Shown here piece by piece: positions 56,000 through 62,541 of a DNA stretch of 64,000 nucleotides. Position 1 is the first letter of the stretch. Each line of letters opens with the position of its first letter. The translations under genes were made by a program, and so were the position numbers. The notes under the pieces are model-generated. The model saw only the letters and a list, made by a program, of their open reading frames with translations, was not told the origin of the DNA and did not search any database. The stretch spans positions 1,488,001 to 1,552,000 of the forward strand of contig CP104100.1 of NCBI GenBank assembly GCA_025163595.1. The letters are read 5' to 3'. Source of the DNA: Phaeobacter sp. G2 (lineage in GTDB: Bacteria > Pseudomonadota > Alphaproteobacteria > Rhodobacterales > Rhodobacteraceae).

Positions 56000-57820
56000 A
56001 TGGATGTAGATGCGAGTTTGAAACACGTGCAGGACATGCACGAAGCGTTTGATTTGTCGCAGGCAGAGGTCATGATGGTTGCCATCATCAATGCAGGGGT
56101 GCTGGGGGATAAGGACACGCTAAAGGCGCGGTTGATCGCGGACCTGCAGGCCGCCATCCAGGTCGAACTGGCAACTATTCCGCTGTATTTGTACACCTAT
56201 TACTCGATCAATCGGACCAAGCTACAGGGCAAAGACCTGGAGGCCGCGCAGATTTTTGCCAATGAGGCGGGCGGCGTCATCATGTCGGTTGCTGTCGAAG
56301 AAATGCTGCACATGTCTTTGTCCAGCAACATTTATTTTGCTTTGACAGGCCAGCCGCCGCAGCTTTACCAGGCGGCACCGCAAAGCTATCCTGCGCTGTT
56401 GCCGCATCATAATCCGGTGGTGCCAGAAGGCCCGGACCCACAGTCCAAGGGCGGGATCCCGCTGCGGCCTTTCTGCTCGGCTCAGCTGTGGCATTTCCTG
56501 CAGATCGAATATCCCCATAACCCGTTCTTTAGTGAAATCCCGGCCGAGGCTTTGCCGGATCTGGTGCGGGAGCTGTCCCAGATGCCCGGCAAGGAGGCCC
56601 TGGCGTTTTTGAATGAACACGGCTGGCCGATGGATCAGAACTGGAATTCGATTGGCCAGTTCTATTCCTTTATCCGCTGCATTGTGGCCTCTTCCTATTT
56701 TGACGATGGGGATTTTCAGGCCGGAGATCCCAAGCAGCAAATCCAGCCCTATAACTACGCCCCGAACAATATCGACACCATCTATCCCAAACAGGCCTTT
56801 GATCCTTCCAAACCGGCGCCGACTGCTCCGGGGGGCGGCTCGGGCTGTCCAGCGGGGCTGCCCGGTGCCGCAGAGGTCACTGTCTATGCCGACGCGGCGG
56901 ATAGTTCTGATGCGCCGGTGCGCCCGGTTGAGGACCACAAGGGGCATAAGGTTTCTGGCGCTTTTGAGCTGATGACGATTTCCAGTCGCCAGGATGTCAT
57001 GCTGGCGCTGGAAACAATTTGTGAGCAGGGCGAGGGATATTCCGCCAAACCCGGCGGTAGCGAGGCAAACTGGGATGACCCGGCCTCGCAGGCAGAGCAG
57101 AGCCATTTTGACAAGTTTCTTGAGTTGCAGATGCAGTTTGAGGACTTTTCGCACAGCCTGGAAAGCCTGCCGCCCTGGATGGAAGAACAGATCGACCTGC
57201 AGTGGCTGTCGGAAGCGGTGCAGGGCAAGGCGAATAAATGGAGCGCGGAGGGGCTCAAAGCCAAAGAACTGCTGTTTGACTACCCGGCCAATCCGACGCG
57301 CGCGGACTATGCCCATGATCCGATCGCAACGGCGCTGAATGATTTTTGTAGTGGCTTGTTCCAGTACATGCTGATCCTGTCCGAAACCATCTACAAGATC
57401 GAACCGAACTATGTCGCGCCGGACCAGCCGGGGGCTGACAAGGTTTCAAAAGATGGCACTGTTCCCCATCAAAAGTACTTTTTCAACATCGCGTTGCATC
57501 GCTCGATGATCTGGATTCTGGATAAATTCATCGCCCTGATGCGTGGCTATGAGGTGACCTTGACGGATGGCCGGACCGTCGCATTGGCGCCCAGTTTTGA
57601 TAACCTTGGCTTTGGCCCGGCGGGGCAGGGGCTGGGCGCACGTCAGGAGGCCTTTGCCAATCTGGCGCAGCTTGGCGCCGAGGCGCTGCTTGCGACGGCG
57701 GGCAATAGTGCGCTCAACGGGTCTGTGGCGCCGCTGGTGGCCCTGACCATCAACAAAACATCCGCTGATGGCGAGGGTATGCACCTGCCTGATGTCAGCG
57801 CCTATTGGCCACAGACCTAG
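56000..57820 (+). CDS. Ferritin-like protein with VioB/iminophenyl-pyruvate dimer synthase domain
   Basis: About 606 residues from ATG 56000 (an ATG at 55916 is the alternative). The first ~220 residues match the ferritin-like domain of the VioB/RebD family: LIADLQAAIQVELATIPLYL (helix with the first Glu), then EAGGVIMSVAVEEMLHMSLS (E-x-x-H ligand helix), then HHNPVVPEGPD and FLQIEYPHNPF. Later helices (HFDKFLELQMQFEDFS; FFNIALHRSMIWILDKFIAL) may complete a second bundle. VioB proteins oxidatively couple imines from amino acids, but this context has no partner oxidase. It lies 97 bp upstream of the CX5C protein and the MNIO gene, suggesting an oxidative or metal-linked role there. Confidence 0.75.
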   Translation: MDVDASLKHVQDMHEAFDLSQAEVMMVAIINAGVLGDKDTLKARLIADLQAAIQVELATIPLYLYTYYSINRTKLQGKDLEAAQIFANEAGGVIMSVAVEEMLHMSLSSNIYFALTGQPPQLYQAAPQSYPALLPHHNPVVPEGPDPQSKGGIPLRPFCSAQLWHFLQIEYPHNPFFSEIPAEALPDLVRELSQMPGKEALAFLNEHGWPMDQNWNSIGQFYSFIRCIVASSYFDDGDFQAGDPKQQIQPYNYAPNNIDTIYPKQAFDPSKPAPTAPGGGSGCPAGLPGAAEVTVYADAADSSDAPVRPVEDHKGHKVSGAFELMTISSRQDVMLALETICEQGEGYSAKPGGSEANWDDPASQAEQSHFDKFLELQMQFEDFSHSLESLPPWMEEQIDLQWLSEAVQGKANKWSAEGLKAKELLFDYPANPTRADYAHDPIATALNDFCSGLFQYMLILSETIYKIEPNYVAPDQPGADKVSKDGTVPHQKYFFNIALHRSMIWILDKFIALMRGYEVTLTDGRTVALAPSFDNLGFGPAGQGLGARQEAFANLAQLGAEALLATAGNSALNGSVAPLVALTINKTSADGEGMHLPDVSAYWPQT

Positions 57821-57917
57821 GTCGCAATCTGCACCTGCAGTTCAGGTCTGTTCCGGCCTGAAAAGCTGCAAATGAACTGGCCGTTACGCCACTTAAAGAT
57901 GCCGAAAGGACAAACCC

Positions 57918-58529
57918 ATGTCTGAGACCAAGCACAGCAACGCCAAGACAACGCAGACAGATCTGCCAGCTGTGGTGCCCCCGCCCTTTAACTGGAAAGA
58001 CACTCCCTATGGTAAGGCAGGGGCGCCGCTGGAATTGCCGGAAGGTGCAGAACTGCACGCCTGTCTGGGGCTGAATTCCTGCAAGGGGCAGGATCGCTAC
58101 GGCATTCATGGGCCCAATGGCAATAATCCAAACAGCTGTGCCGGGCAGGGGTTTTGCGCCACCACCGAAATCCATTCCTGCCATACCAATAACAACTGCG
58201 CCAATCAGGGCGGCTGCGGGCTGTATGGTTGGGGGCCCGATATGGACCAGCCCGGCCAGAACGACTGCCGCTCGATGGGGTCATGTGCGGCCCCGATCAA
58301 TGCCGAACGCTTTATCACCGAAGGTGACCACAAGGGGATGAGCGTCTGGACCCGGGCCCGCCAGGTGTTTGAGGAAGCCTATGCGCAAAAGCAATCGGGT
58401 GAAAAGCTCGGGGCGGCACCAGCGCCGTTTAGCGACACCGGCCCGACGGAATCCTGGATCACGGAAAACTGCAACAGCTTTGCCGCCTGTGGCGCCAGCG
58501 GGCTGTCGGGGGGAGGCAGCTGTTCGTGA
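57918..58529 (+). CDS. Cys-rich protein with six CX5C units; candidate MNIO substrate
   Basis: A 203-residue protein after AAAGGACAAACCC, with no obvious signal peptide. It has twelve Cys (49, 55, 74, 80, 88, 94, 100, 117, 123, 185, 191, 202). Eleven fall in exact CX5C spacing: CLGLNSC, CAGQGFC, CHTNNNC sharing its last Cys with CANQGGC, CRSMGSC and CNSFAAC. The central part (45-125) is Gly/Asn-rich; a helical charged segment (140-165) separates the last unit from a Gly/Ser/Cys tail. Its stop overlaps the MNIO gene by 4 bp, the usual precursor-enzyme arrangement for MNIO RiPPs such as bufferins. It lacks the EGKCG repeats and signal peptide of classical bufferins, so it looks like a distinct precursor or metal-buffer class. 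Confidence 0.75.
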   Translation: MSETKHSNAKTTQTDLPAVVPPPFNWKDTPYGKAGAPLELPEGAELHACLGLNSCKGQDRYGIHGPNGNNPNSCAGQGFCATTEIHSCHTNNNCANQGGCGLYGWGPDMDQPGQNDCRSMGSCAAPINAERFITEGDHKGMSVWTRARQVFEEAYAQKQSGEKLGAAPAPFSDTGPTESWITENCNSFAACGASGLSGGGSCS

Positions 58530-59479
58530 CACCACCGCCAACAGAGATCGCAAAACTGCCCAGGCTTGGCCTGGGGCTGGGGCTGCGCAACACCCATTTT
58601 GACCATATCCTGACCACTTGGCCGGAGGTCGACTGGTTCGAGGCCATCTCGGAGAACTTTATGGATTCCGGTGGGCGTCCGCGTCAGGTGATCCGCAAAG
58701 TGGCAGAGCGCTATCCGGTGGTGCTGCATGGGGTGTCGCTGTCAATTGGCAGCAGTGATCCTTTGAACATGGACTACCTCCAGCGGCTAAAGCACCTGGC
58801 CCAAGAGGTGCAGCCGCAGTGGATCAGTGATCACCTATGCTGGACCGGTGTCATGGGATTGAACTCGCATGATTTGCTGCCGGTTCCGCTGACCGAGGCA
58901 ACGCTGGACCATATCGCCGCCCGTGTGCACCGTGTGCAAGAGGTGCTGGGGCGTCCATTGATCCTGGAAAACCCCTCTACCTATCTGAATTTCCGCGAAA
59001 ATACTCTGTCCGAGCCTGAATTCCTGCGTGCCCTCTGTGACCGCACCGACTGCGGATTGCTTTTGGACGTCAACAACGTCTTTGTGAGCTGCTTCAACGC
59101 CGAAAGCGACCCGGTGGACTATTTTGACAGCTTCCCCTGGGCCCGTGTGGTGCAGATGCACCTGGCGGGGCATACGGATTGTGGCAGCCATTTGATTGAT
59201 ACCCATGACCAACCAGTGCGCCCGGAGGTCTGGGCGCTGTTTGCCTTGGCCTGGCAGCGCAGCAATGGGGCCTCTACCTTGTTGGAGTGGGACGGCAATA
59301 TTCCCGCCTTTGAGGTCTGCCATGGAGAGTTGCTCAAGGCCAAAGCCTATATGAATGGCGGTTTTGCGTCTCTGACCGGCGCGCCTGCTCCGCTGGCTGA
59401 AACCCGGGCGGTATCCAACCCAGTCAGTTTCCTGGTGCCGGATGTTATGGCCGGAGCAGTAGAGCTGGAAAAGGGGTGA
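58526..59479 (+). CDS. Multinuclear non-haem iron oxidase (MNIO, DUF692/UPF0276)
   Basis: A 317-residue TIM-barrel MNIO from GTG 58526. Conserved metal-site residues are visible: Glu in FEAISENF, His68 (VLHGVSL), Asp102-His103 (ISDHLCW), Glu148-Asn149 (LENPSTY), Asp181 (LLLDVNNVFV), His212 and His216 (MHLAGH), the Asp-x-His of DTHDQPV and Glu254 (LLEWDGN). Characterised relatives (MbnB, TglH, ChrH, BufB) oxidise peptide Cys residues, often with a partner protein that binds the precursor. Overlap with the CX5C gene upstream and DUF2063 gene downstream makes these substrate and partner respectively. Confidence 0.92.
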   Translation: MTPPPTEIAKLPRLGLGLGLRNTHFDHILTTWPEVDWFEAISENFMDSGGRPRQVIRKVAERYPVVLHGVSLSIGSSDPLNMDYLQRLKHLAQEVQPQWISDHLCWTGVMGLNSHDLLPVPLTEATLDHIAARVHRVQEVLGRPLILENPSTYLNFRENTLSEPEFLRALCDRTDCGLLLDVNNVFVSCFNAESDPVDYFDSFPWARVVQMHLAGHTDCGSHLIDTHDQPVRPEVWALFALAWQRSNGASTLLEWDGNIPAFEVCHGELLKAKAYMNGGFASLTGAPAPLAETRAVSNPVSFLVPDVMAGAVELEKG

Positions 59480-60291
59480 GCGCCCCGCCTGAGCTGCTGG
59501 ACCTGCAAAAGTGGATGCAGGGGGCGTTGCTACAGCCGCAACAGACGCCGCCCCAGGAAATTGAAGACCGGGTGCAGTCCACATCCAGGCTGTCGGCTGC
59601 GGCGGGCCTGGAGATCTATCAAAACAGTTACAACCTGCGGATCGCGGCCTGTATGCGCGATCAGTTTCCGGCGCTGTGCTATGCCTTGGGGGAGGGGTTG
59701 TTCAATGATTTTGTTGCGGAATACATTCGCCAGGACCCGCCCGAAAGCTATACTCTGTATGATCTAGGTCGCCGGTTTGCAGGGTTTTTGCAGGCCAATC
59801 GCCCCGATCTTGGCGCCGCCGTGCCCGAACTTTGGGTGGATTTCATTATCGACCTCACCCGGTTTGAGCGGCAGGTTTTTTCCACCTTTGACTGCGCCGG
59901 AGCAGAGGATCTGCACCTGGCAGAGCTGGCGACGCCAGACGCCGCGCTTGTGGTGCAACCCAGCCTGTCGGTCGCGTCCTATGGGTTTCCTGTCGGGACG
60001 TATTATCACGCGGTTCGTCAGGGGCGCGCGCCGCCGCCGCCGCAGCGGGAGCAGGTTTATCTAGCGGTTCTGCGCAAGGATTATGTCACCCATACCATCC
60101 CGGTGAGCTTTGGCCATTTTGTGTTCTTGCACGCGATGTGCCAGGGCGGAACGGTGCAGACTGCTCTGGCGACAGTGGCGCAGCAGCTTGGGCAGCCCCC
60201 GGACAGGGTTGAACAGGCGTGGAAAGACGCCGCCGAGATACGCGATGGCTGGATCACAGCGGGGTTTTTCCTGGATCGCAGATGGGCCTAG
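59476..60291 (+). CDS. DUF2063-family MNIO partner (BufC/HvfC-like)
   Basis: A 271-residue protein from GTG 59476, overlapping the MNIO stop by 4 bp. The N-terminal DUF2063 domain shows LEIYQNSYNLRIAACMRDQF, then PALCYALGEGLFNDFVAEYI. A second half carries LWVDFIIDLTRFERQVFSTF (about 118 to 137). Partners of this family bind the precursor leader or form a complex with the MNIO. The gene ends the forward operon, meeting the protease gene tail to tail. Confidence 0.88.
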   Translation: MSAPPELLDLQKWMQGALLQPQQTPPQEIEDRVQSTSRLSAAAGLEIYQNSYNLRIAACMRDQFPALCYALGEGLFNDFVAEYIRQDPPESYTLYDLGRRFAGFLQANRPDLGAAVPELWVDFIIDLTRFERQVFSTFDCAGAEDLHLAELATPDAALVVQPSLSVASYGFPVGTYYHAVRQGRAPPPPQREQVYLAVLRKDYVTHTIPVSFGHFVFLHAMCQGGTVQTALATVAQQLGQPPDRVEQAWKDAAEIRDGWITAGFFLDRRWA

Positions 60292-60307: not shown

Positions 60308-61285
60308 TTAGTCCGCCGGGATCAGGCTCAGATATTCCACGGTATAGCCGTTCACATAGTCCAAACTGACCGCGCCATTGCCCCGGCGTCCAACCCCTGG
60401 ATAGCCCGCCAGCGGGTCGTCCGGGTATTTTCCAAAATCGCCATTCCAGCTGTTGCGGAAAATGAACCAGCCGCCTCCTAGCTCTTCTGGTCCGGGCTGA
60501 AACCCGGTCACACAGACGCAATGGCCTGAAACCCGCACCTCACGGTCCACCAGGTCCGGGCGGGCCACCGGGTCAAATACAATGCCAGAGTTCAATGCGC
60601 CGTTGTAGGTCCAGTTGTTTTTGTGGGAGTTCTTCAGCTTGAACACCGGCAGGCCCAGCGCCACCGGGCGCCCTTGGCTCAGCTCTTGCAGGATACTGTC
60701 TGCTGTGGTTTCAGCAACAGGGCCGTTTTCAAAATCCTCATATTTTACCGTGCAAAACCGCCGGGTTGCGGCATCCGCTTCGGCGGCCTCAGGGGGGGCG
60801 TGTTTAGAAAACAGCCCGTTCTGCAGGTCGCTGGTCTGGTAGGGGGTCAGGGCCTCGGTACATATTCCACGGGCGGCGAGCACCTTATGCGCCTGCTTCA
60901 ATTTGGTGGCGCCCCTGGCATAGTCCGGCAGAACTGCGGCTTCCTCGGCGGTAATGGCCGCACGCATGTGCCAATAAAGATATTCCGGCGAATGCAGGAC
61001 CGGTTGTTCCCCCCGCCGGGCCTGCAGGATATCGACACAGGCTGCGACGGCAAAGGCGGTGCAGGTCCCGCGCGGGCGCTGATCCCGAGGATCCCAGTGG
61101 GGTGACATACCTGCTTCGAGATCAATCACCTGCGCCCGCAGGGCGCTTTCAGCGCTGCTTGCTCCAAGGTGGGCACAGCGATGGACCCATTCGGCATATC
61201 CAGGCGCGCGAAACAGCTGGTCCAGAGACTCAGGGGGGGTGAACCCAGCAAAAAAGCGTCCCAAGGGCGTTGGAAAATCAGGCAT
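60308..61285 (-). CDS. C1-family papain-like cysteine protease
   Basis: Start ATG 61285 follows GGAGG; an ATG 12 bp upstream overlaps that site. About 325 residues with the C1A catalytic set: oxyanion Gln and nucleophile Cys in RDQRPRGTCTAFAVAA (about residue 75), His in VSGHCVCVTGF (about 265) and Asn in FIFRNSWNGDFG (about 287). No signal peptide is evident, so it may act in the cytoplasm. It is convergent with the MNIO operon and upstream of nothing else on its strand but the haloperoxidase-like gene; a role in precursor processing is possible but unproven. Confidence 0.85.
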   Translation of the reverse strand: MPDFPTPLGRFFAGFTPPESLDQLFRAPGYAEWVHRCAHLGASSAESALRAQVIDLEAGMSPHWDPRDQRPRGTCTAFAVAACVDILQARRGEQPVLHSPEYLYWHMRAAITAEEAAVLPDYARGATKLKQAHKVLAARGICTEALTPYQTSDLQNGLFSKHAPPEAAEADAATRRFCTVKYEDFENGPVAETTADSILQELSQGRPVALGLPVFKLKNSHKNNWTYNGALNSGIVFDPVARPDLVDREVRVSGHCVCVTGFQPGPEELGGGWFIFRNSWNGDFGKYPDDPLAGYPGVGRRGNGAVSLDYVNGYTVEYLSLIPAD

Positions 61286-61357
61286 GGCAGCCTCCATGAG
61301 CGGGGGAACGGGGAGAGGATCGGGGGCAAAGCAGGCCGAGCCGGGCCATGGCTGGGA

Positions 61358-62440
61358 TCAAGGGGATTTCTTTTTCTGGTCCTTGAATGACTTGTCTGGG
61401 CGTTCCGCTTTTTTAGCCTCGCAGTCGCTGTTCAGGGCTGCTGCAATCAGATCGGGCAGGTCATTGGCCAGCCTTCTGGCCACAGCGTTGGATACCCTGC
61501 GGCTCAAAGAGGTGCCGCCCTCCAGATCCGGAAGGGTCGCAGGGTCAGGGGCAAAGCTGCAGGTGATCCCGGACCACTCTGCGCGGGCCTCGGCGAGCAG
61601 GGCTTTGACCTCCGGCATCTCCTTGAGGAAACCGTGAAAAGTGTCCTTTGCCAATTGCTGCCCAGCCCGGGTATCGCTGCGAAAATGCACTCCGGCGATT
61701 TCGCGGTTTTCGGAAATGCGCTGCGCCAGTGCAGCGGCATAGCGGGCCATGGCATGCGCTTCGCCGTCGTCAAACAGAGCGGCAATCATCGTCGCAATCA
61801 GGGTCATCTGGGTGGCGTGGCCGCTGGGATAGGAGGCATGCGGCGGGGTTGGTACCAGGGGCATCAGCGCTGGGCAGACCTGCACCGGGCGGGCGCGGCC
61901 AATCTTATGTTTGAAATGAAGCGCAACCATCTGTCCGGCCTGCATTGCCAGCATGATCAATTTCTGTGTCGCGGGCCGGTTGCCTGCCCCCATCATCAAC
62001 ATGTTTGACCAATAGGCCTCGCTATTGGCGACCTGCGCTACGATCTCTGCGGCGCGATGGGACCTGTGGTTGTTGCGCATGGCAATCAGATCATGCACTT
62101 CGCGGCGCAAGGCCAGATCGCCGTCATCAGGGTTATCCACCTGAATGGCACTATCGCCTTCGTCCCAGCCAGTTTTGGCAAACCGCTGCAGGATCAGCTT
62201 GACTTCGAGCTGCGGCGACCAGGCATCGGCGGGAAATTCCTGACCGCCGAGATAGCTAAAAGGCACGCCACCTTTGCGCCCCAAAGGCTCGTTAAAGGGC
62301 AGCCCGGCAGCTTTTCCTGCAGAGCGATAAGGGGCGTAAGATCCGGCGGCAACAGCGCCATCTACCGCCCCGTCAACGGCCCCATCCACTGCGCCGTCTA
62401 CGGCCCCGTCAACTGCGCCATCGCGATATCCATGTGTCAT
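61358..62440 (-). CDS. Vanadium-dependent haloperoxidase/PAP2-superfamily protein with N-terminal DGAV repeat
   Basis: Start ATG 62440 follows GGAGGG; the open frame continues upstream but without a site. About 360 residues. Residues 7 to 30 are six tandem DGAV units. The PAP2/VHPO core follows with motif 1 KHKIGRARPVQ, motif 2 YPSGHATQMT and motif 3 GVHFRSDTRAGQQLA, the pocket that binds phosphate or vanadate. A C-terminal extension is Lys-rich. It could be a haloperoxidase or a phosphatase; the VHPO-type spacing and NHRSHRAAEIVAQVANSEAY segment favour the former family. It lies 73 bp upstream of the C1 protease gene on the same strand. Confidence 0.8.
   Translation of the reverse strand: MTHGYRDGAVDGAVDGAVDGAVDGAVDGAVAAGSYAPYRSAGKAAGLPFNEPLGRKGGVPFSYLGGQEFPADAWSPQLEVKLILQRFAKTGWDEGDSAIQVDNPDDGDLALRREVHDLIAMRNNHRSHRAAEIVAQVANSEAYWSNMLMMGAGNRPATQKLIMLAMQAGQMVALHFKHKIGRARPVQVCPALMPLVPTPPHASYPSGHATQMTLIATMIAALFDDGEAHAMARYAAALAQRISENREIAGVHFRSDTRAGQQLAKDTFHGFLKEMPEVKALLAEARAEWSGITCSFAPDPATLPDLEGGTSLSRRVSNAVARRLANDLPDLIAAALNSDCEAKKAERPDKSFKDQKKKSP
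62351..62422 (-). repeat. Six tandem 12-bp units encoding DGAV
   Basis: Six consecutive units encode DGAV at residues 7 to 30 of the haloperoxidase-like protein. The units differ mainly at third codon positions (GAT/GAC, GGC/GGG, GCA/GCC/GCG/GCT, GTT/GTA/GTG), so the amino-acid repeat has been kept while the DNA diverged. Confidence 0.85.
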
Positions 62441-62541
62441 GTAACCCTCCACTCCGGCCCCTGGTTCTAGAATAGAACGCCCGACCAGATTAACTCTGGA
62501 AAGCACTGCGTTAGCCTGGCGTGAAGAGCCCGTGAGATCGG

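Follow-up and report, generated by a model that had tools for sequence, protein, structure and literature searches.

A 64,000-nucleotide stretch of the Phaeobacter sp. G2 genome (assembly GCA_025163595.1, contig CP104100.1, positions 1,488,001 to 1,552,000; hereafter the window, whose own numbering is used throughout) carries a cassette of four genes on the + strand, in which a cysteine-rich protein with CX5C spacing is encoded between a ferritin-like protein and a member of the MNIO (MbnB/TglH/ChrH) family. The ferritin-like gene lies at 56000..57820, and its product contains a PF12902 domain (4.4e-34, 118.7 bits; gathering cut-off 22.3 bits). After an intergenic gap of 97 bp (57821..57917) it is followed by the gene for the CX5C protein (57918..58529), a predicted MNIO substrate of 203 residues and 12 cysteines with no Pfam hit. 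Within this gene, the cysteine core from C49 to C123, which holds five CX5C pairs, is encoded at 58062..58286, and a conserved C-terminal cysteine pair, C191-C202, at 58488..58523. The MNIO gene (58526..59479; PF05114, 4.6e-106, 354 bits) and the gene for a DUF2063 partner protein of PME-type 1 (59476..60291; PF09836, 1e-16, 61.4 bits; cut-off 27.2 bits) complete the cassette, and the coordinates of the open reading frames give overlaps of 4 bp between the CX5C and MNIO genes and between the MNIO and DUF2063 genes. The reading frames, both overlaps, the gap and the assignment of the MNIO, DUF2063 and ferritin-like genes agree with a preliminary description of the window.

Conservation of the cassette was assessed by scanning a genome collection, in which relatives of the CX5C protein were found at 106 places; the best 80 were retrieved as loci, many of them from metagenome-assembled genomes, and the other 26 were not retrieved. 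Relatives of the MNIO and DUF2063 genes were located downstream in all 80 retrieved loci, and the PF09836 signature was present in 81 of 81 cassette partner proteins. A relative of the ferritin-like protein was encoded upstream, or fused, in 79 of the 80, the exception (L007) ending at a contig edge. The ferritin-like gene was reduced to a 132-residue piece in L034, and the ferritin-like and DUF2063 genes of L013 were each broken into two frames. By phylum, the 80 loci comprised 50 from Pseudomonadota, 22 from Bacteroidota, four from Acidobacteriota, two from Actinomycetota, and one each from Cyanobacteriota and Myxococcota. The CX5C family was present in 3 of 394 genomes of the same taxonomic family, with the Phaeobacter genome itself counted, and among 385 genomes of the class the scan gave this genome and three weak short matches, two of which (L084 and L085) adjoin an MNIO gene. 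The cassette is real, patchy and rare within any one group, yet present in six phyla. Spread by plasmids was rejected, with no match among 72,556 plasmid records. Gene order is conserved and the ferritin-like partner constant, which supports the preliminary description, and a check for CX5C homologues lacking an MNIO gave none among the 80 loci retrieved from the 106 places.

The cysteines of the window protein are located at positions 49, 55, 74, 80, 88, 94, 100, 117, 123, 185, 191, and 202 and form six CX5C pairs. Random placement of the cysteines gave a mean of 0.63 such pairs and reached six in none of 100,000 placements, by which chance spacing was ruled out. An initial homologue search yielded 239 proteins, and when the window protein was aligned to 33 of the 120 matches listed, eleven cysteines were invariant. 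When conservation was counted over 81 rows, consisting of the window protein and the 80 genome loci, eleven of the 12 window cysteines were present in at least 80 rows, and 49 alignment positions, not the cysteines alone, were kept in at least 79. Five CX5C pairs were found in 72 of the 81 relatives, six in eight, and four in one. Six CX5C units, as described earlier, are indeed seen in the window protein, but the sixth (C185-C191) is a local feature, C185 being present in 8 of 81 rows; the loss of cysteines among homologues that would have spoken against the proposed class of protein did not occur. The separate CX5C proteins among the relatives are 155-277 residues long and contain 10-22 cysteines. 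Tails with extra cysteines were found in several Bacteroidota members; cysteine motifs of the NGCGG/NGCGSSG type are repeated in N-terminal tails before the conserved core in L063, L066, L076, L077, L079, and L080, and the maximum of 22 cysteines occurs in L077.

Signal peptides were judged from N-terminal hydropathy alone, and by this measure none was obvious in the window CX5C protein, with a value of 0.22 versus 1.7-2.5 in six Buf2 precursors. The median for 63 separate CX5C proteins was 0.19 and the maximum 1.95. The earlier characterization of the product as a long precursor (203 residues) with no obvious signal peptide accordingly stands.

The ferritin-like and CX5C genes, separate in the window, form one open frame in 17 of the 80 loci, including those of Collimonas humicola, Thalassospira sp. 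HJ, and Paraliomyxa miuraensis. Long proteins (length limit of about 380-1209 residues, E values up to 1e-20) were searched using the CX5C part of the Collimonas fusion as the query; 207 database proteins matched, and PF12902 was present in 119 of 120 among the matches listed. At least four changes between the fused and separate states are needed on the MNIO tree described below. Chance adjacency of the ferritin-like gene was ruled out by its co-occurrence in 79 of 80 loci together with the fusions. Pairwise distances of the cysteine core correlated better with those of the ferritin-like protein (r 0.83) than with those of the MNIO (0.67) or the DUF2063 protein (0.69); the correlation was 0.80 between the ferritin-like protein and the MNIO and 0.83 between the MNIO and the DUF2063 protein, all in a comparison with no control gene.

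Residues E56, E101xxH104, E170, E345, and E366xxH369 of the ferritin-like protein were present in 76-79 of 80 aligned rows and, from their motif, are candidate diiron ligands. In a comparison of 11 cassette proteins with 14 other PF12902 proteins, E56, E101, H104, E170, and H369 were found in all 25 and E345 in 24; E366 was variable outside the cassette, H137 and H500 occurred in cassette rows only, and E462 occurred in cassette rows and two others. A profile built from 30 ferritin-like sequences matched PDB 3hl1, annotated as ‘Ferritin like protein’ (1.9e-22). The domain is related to that of VioB, the iminophenyl-pyruvate dimer synthase, and against TIGR04492, the VioB model with a cut-off of 1250 bits, the window protein scored 15.1 bits and the Collimonas fusion 32.7 bits, both below it.

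Comparison with bufferin precursors was performed using a set of 12 Buf2-type sequences, 10 from places above the BufA2 cut-off and two below, all of which carry CxGxNxC units and have their cysteines spaced as CX5C. The family profile matched the Buf2-like protein of locus L114 with a probability of 97.3%, an E value of 1.8e-11, and 41% identity over residues 29-125, and the match scored 67.3, whereas shuffles in which cysteine positions were fixed and the remaining residues permuted scored at most 29.3 in 40 of 40 cases. Three single BufA2-like sequences scored 42.3 (L089), 43.3 (L100), and 29.7 (L091) against the family profile. The C191-C202 pair lies outside the Buf2 match and has no counterpart there. 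The Buf1-like precursor of the same Phaeobacter genome gave no match to the family profile, scoring 12.7 at a probability of 0.3%. Scores against NF050166, the BufA2 model with a cut-off of 60 bits, were 16.2 for the window protein and 23.0 and 16.6 for two relatives, all below it. From these profile comparisons and controls, the CX5C protein is a Buf2-like domain with no obvious signal peptide that is enlarged at both ends, its cysteine core being homologous to Buf2-type precursors.

The window MNIO scored 351.7 bits against NF050167, the BufB equivalog model, which exceeds the cut-off of 310 bits. A tree of 111 MNIO sequences (83 cassette and 28 other) was built by a quick search under LG+G4 with a midpoint root; the outgroup contains several long branches. 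The cassette MNIOs fall together to one side of a branch whose SH-aLRT support is 100%; they are joined by two MNIOs of Buf2-like loci below the cut-off (98%) and then by eleven from loci above it. The fifteen remaining MNIOs stand apart from the cassette and Buf2 types, and the Buf1-type MNIO of the Phaeobacter genome is among them. This second MNIO belongs to a locus (L002, near C1:3024650) that encodes a precursor with a signal-peptide-like N-terminus, the MNIO (373.6 bits against NF050167), a DUF2063 relative, and a DoxX-like protein; it resembles a Buf1 operon, with Buf1 and DoxX as provisional names.

The cassette therefore shares with the BufA2/Buf2 group (Buf_6/12Cys) its CX5C spacing, CxGxNxC units, precursor-MNIO-DUF2063 gene order, BufB-type MNIO, and PME-type 1 partner, and differs from it in a precursor of about twice the length without an obvious signal peptide, a conserved C-terminal part, and a constant, often fused ferritin-like partner. 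The preliminary description had attributed to the protein a cysteine periodicity different from that of bufferins, which does not hold for Buf2: BufA2/Buf2 precursors are themselves CX5C-spaced, the core is homologous to theirs, and the MNIO exceeds the BufB cut-off. Its proposal of a distinct class of MNIO-modified protein is retained in part, in that the protein is long, ferritin-linked, and without an obvious signal peptide, but the cysteine core and the MNIO are related to Buf2 and BufB.

PF12902 proteins outside the cassette were also examined. The domain was found in 6 of 190 genomes of the class and 17 of 398 of the phylum, with the Phaeobacter genome within both; three weak hits in the other genomes (L139-L141) did not match the ferritin-like profile built here. 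For these loci the stored flanks extend about 1.5 kb, beyond which an MNIO would be missed. In 3 of the 21 other PF12902 genomes (G035, G854, and G995) the gene is fused to a cysteine domain and accompanied by an MNIO; in G035 and G995 the fused relatives are divergent, and genes for an MNIO and a DUF2063 protein follow downstream. Among 18 other PF12902 proteins scanned, two (L119 and L134) have Fer4_19 and two CDGSH stretches C-terminal to the ferritin-like domain, with no MNIO within the stored flanks. Like the cassette proteins, these two have the ferritin-like domain, its ligand residues, and a metal module after the domain; they differ in carrying iron-sulfur domains where the cassette has the Buf2-like domain. 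Judged by domain order, this architecture is a possible functional counterpart of the cassette. Co-occurrence of CDGSH with Fer4_19 and ferritin-like domains is noted in PMC5859297, a study of how CDGSH evolved.

According to PMC13097082, MNIO and PME1 pairs form 5-thiooxazoles on cysteines of EGKCG peptides and Buf1, and the products bind copper; copper binding by bufferins is also reported in PMC12452194. The latter, a landscape paper, raises the suspicion that MNIOs modify proteins too, and describes a few fusions of bufferin domains (Buf1 with cytochrome c, Buf1 with FGE-sulfatase, and MerC with Buf1 or Buf2). As in the cassette, a bufferin-type domain is joined there to a metal-related protein; those fusions, however, are predicted to be exported or in the membrane, whereas the domain fused in the cassette is PF12902, as seen in 17 of 80 loci and in 207 proteins of the database. 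No ferritin-like partner appears among the bufferin-domain fusions in section 14 of that paper, and the terms ‘Ferritin’, ‘VioB’, and ‘PF12902’ do not appear in its main text. The adjamnio-I group of PMC12452194 consists of 100 sequences of 122-293 residues with 8-21 cysteines and no signal peptide, encoded ahead of an MNIO that has a PME-type 2 partner. The window protein (203 residues, 12 cysteines, no obvious signal peptide, before an MNIO) fits this description of size and cysteine content, and the ranges overlap those of the CX5C family, one relative of which exceeds them with 22 cysteines. The major organization of adjamnio-I contains PME-type 2, whereas 81 of 81 cassette partners carry the DUF2063 signature. 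Going by the main-text description, the CX5C family may overlap adjamnio-I. The published correlation (PMC12452194) pairs signal-peptide substrates with PME-type 1 and signal-less substrates with type 2, and the CX5C family is an exception to it. Among the papers listed in literature searches, none deals jointly with MNIOs and ferritin-like or dimer-synthase proteins; PMC8224329 contains both DUF692 and ferritin-like, the latter only within a reference title. The cassette is a variant of the bufferin-type MNIO system in which a ferritin-like protein is the constant partner.

Taken on the evidence of sequence, the cysteine domain, predicted to be modified by the MNIO, may give a diiron protein its metal or redox module, with all four genes making one metalloprotein, a reading to which we attach about as much belief as doubt. 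In its favour are the conserved gene order, the fusions, the Buf2 homology, the shared candidate ligand residues, the iron-sulfur counterparts, the lack of any other constant neighbour among the flanking genes compared, and the correlated distances. The four products would build a metalloprotein that is probably cytoplasmic, an intracellular location being suggested by the weak N-terminal hydropathy of the CX5C proteins. The ferritin-like protein would supply a carboxylate-bridged diiron centre, and the Buf2-derived CX5C domain would be modified on several cysteines by the MNIO, guided by the DUF2063 partner. Because the core is homologous to bufferin precursors, it is expected to be modified as in Buf1 and EGKCG peptides, probably to 5-thiooxazoles. 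The modified domain would remain with the ferritin-like protein, as a subunit in the window and, where the genes are fused, as the C-terminal domain of one chain, and would act as a metal-binding or electron-transfer module in place of Fer4_19/CDGSH. Given the fusions and the iron-sulfur counterpart, a released peptide is less likely than a domain that stays with the diiron protein as a lasting module, and the frequent fusion of the two domains points to one protein with two metal modules. A narrower form of this proposal can be advanced only tentatively: MNIO modification would yield a metal or redox cofactor derived from protein, and a ferritin-like diiron oxygenase or oxidase would use the intracellular bufferin-type domain as its second metal centre, in place of an iron-sulfur module.

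Several observations weigh against this interpretation. L114, which gave the best Buf2-type match, is one of the two sequences that fall below the BufA2 cut-off; its stored 3 kb contain no MNIO, and its genome has an estimated contamination of 10%. L091, one of the three BufA2-like sequences, hardly exceeded the best shuffle (29.7 versus 29.3). The iron-sulfur architecture was seen in just 2 of 18 proteins, and a fusion also suits a tailoring enzyme acting in cis. Close to its N-terminus the window ferritin-like protein contains a hydrophobic segment (hydropathy 2.41), which makes its intracellular location less certain. AlphaFold2 confidence for the cysteine domain was low both in the fusion and alone: in the Collimonas fusion the cysteine domain gave blocks of 25-77 and the ferritin-like part blocks mostly of 80-98, and the mean was 45.8 for the window CX5C protein alone, the two models being built on unlike alignments (70 and 34 rows), which makes the difference in confidence an uncontrolled comparison.

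Among the alternatives, the best surviving is that the cassette encodes an intracellular bufferin, in which the CX5C protein would store copper or another soft metal as thiooxazoles and a ferritin-like oxidase or metal-handling partner would load or protect the store. Buf2 homology, the BufB-type MNIO, the copper binding of bufferins described in PMC12452194 and PMC13097082, and the richness of some Bacteroidota members in extra cysteines (up to 22) all suit such a store. Against it, the 49 positions kept in at least 79 of 81 rows exceed what a simple store would be expected to require, none of the neighbours (84 flanking proteins by Pfam, and sequence clusters) was a constant metal transporter or regulator, and the Phaeobacter genome already has an apparent Buf1 operon. 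We consider this account possible and rather unlikely. In borosins, the enzyme is fused to its precursor, and the ferritin-like protein could in a similar way be a second tailoring enzyme that acts on the CX5C region in cis, with the modified CX5C protein as the product of a two-enzyme maturation. A complete candidate diiron ligand set befits an oxidative enzyme, and the fusions and strict co-occurrence accord with this account, which is nevertheless improbable given that PF12902 proteins elsewhere do without a nearby cysteine-rich substrate, a cysteine domain with an MNIO being found in only 3 of the 21 other PF12902 genomes (flanks of about 1.5 kb), and that iron-sulfur modules occupy the equivalent place in 2 of 18 other PF12902 proteins. 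The related suggestion of the preliminary description, that the ferritin-like protein provides an extra tailoring step, is possible but is not the best reading, since fusion in 17 of 80 loci suggests one protein with two metal modules. That the CX5C protein is not an MNIO substrate at all, the MNIO acting on the ferritin-like protein or another target, is very unlikely, as Buf2 homology marks the cysteine domain as the natural substrate and the CX5C sequence has the MNIO gene directly after it in all 80 retrieved loci, even though cysteine modification is so far only predicted for the CX5C family.

The characterized products of MNIO and DUF2063 pairs in the cited papers, as far as these describe them, are copper-binding peptides. 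A predicted substrate that is a conserved domain joined to a ferritin-like diiron protein in six phyla consequently makes it possible to ask directly if an enzyme is matured by MNIO chemistry. If the proposed metalloprotein is real, thiooxazole formation would be used for something beyond metal sequestration, and MNIO modification may help to build a working enzyme in addition to copper-binding peptides. The single-chain fusions simplify co-expression, mass analysis, and structure work.

A wider conserved operon was rejected, since no Pfam family was common to more than 3 of the 84 flanking proteins; the widest neighbour sequence cluster spanned 10 of 80 loci and another spanned 8. LanC-like, tryptophan halogenase, tyrosinase, lipase, and weakly THAP4-like proteins adjoin single or few cassettes. 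A common set of neighbours, on varying sides, is found in L006, L008, L009, L026, and L032 and includes GST-like, cytochrome P450-like, and unknown proteins, with an additional LanC-like gene in L008. Another neighbour family occurs in L027, L033, L039, L049, L055, L067, L072, and L082; five of these eight loci have it directly upstream in the same orientation, and two of its members gave weak matches to the THAP4 haem-binding family below the Pfam cut-off. In the window, genes for a papain-like protease and a PAP2 phosphatase (60308-62506, - strand) are convergent to the cassette, and relatives of both hold the equivalent place in three near loci, L003-L005.

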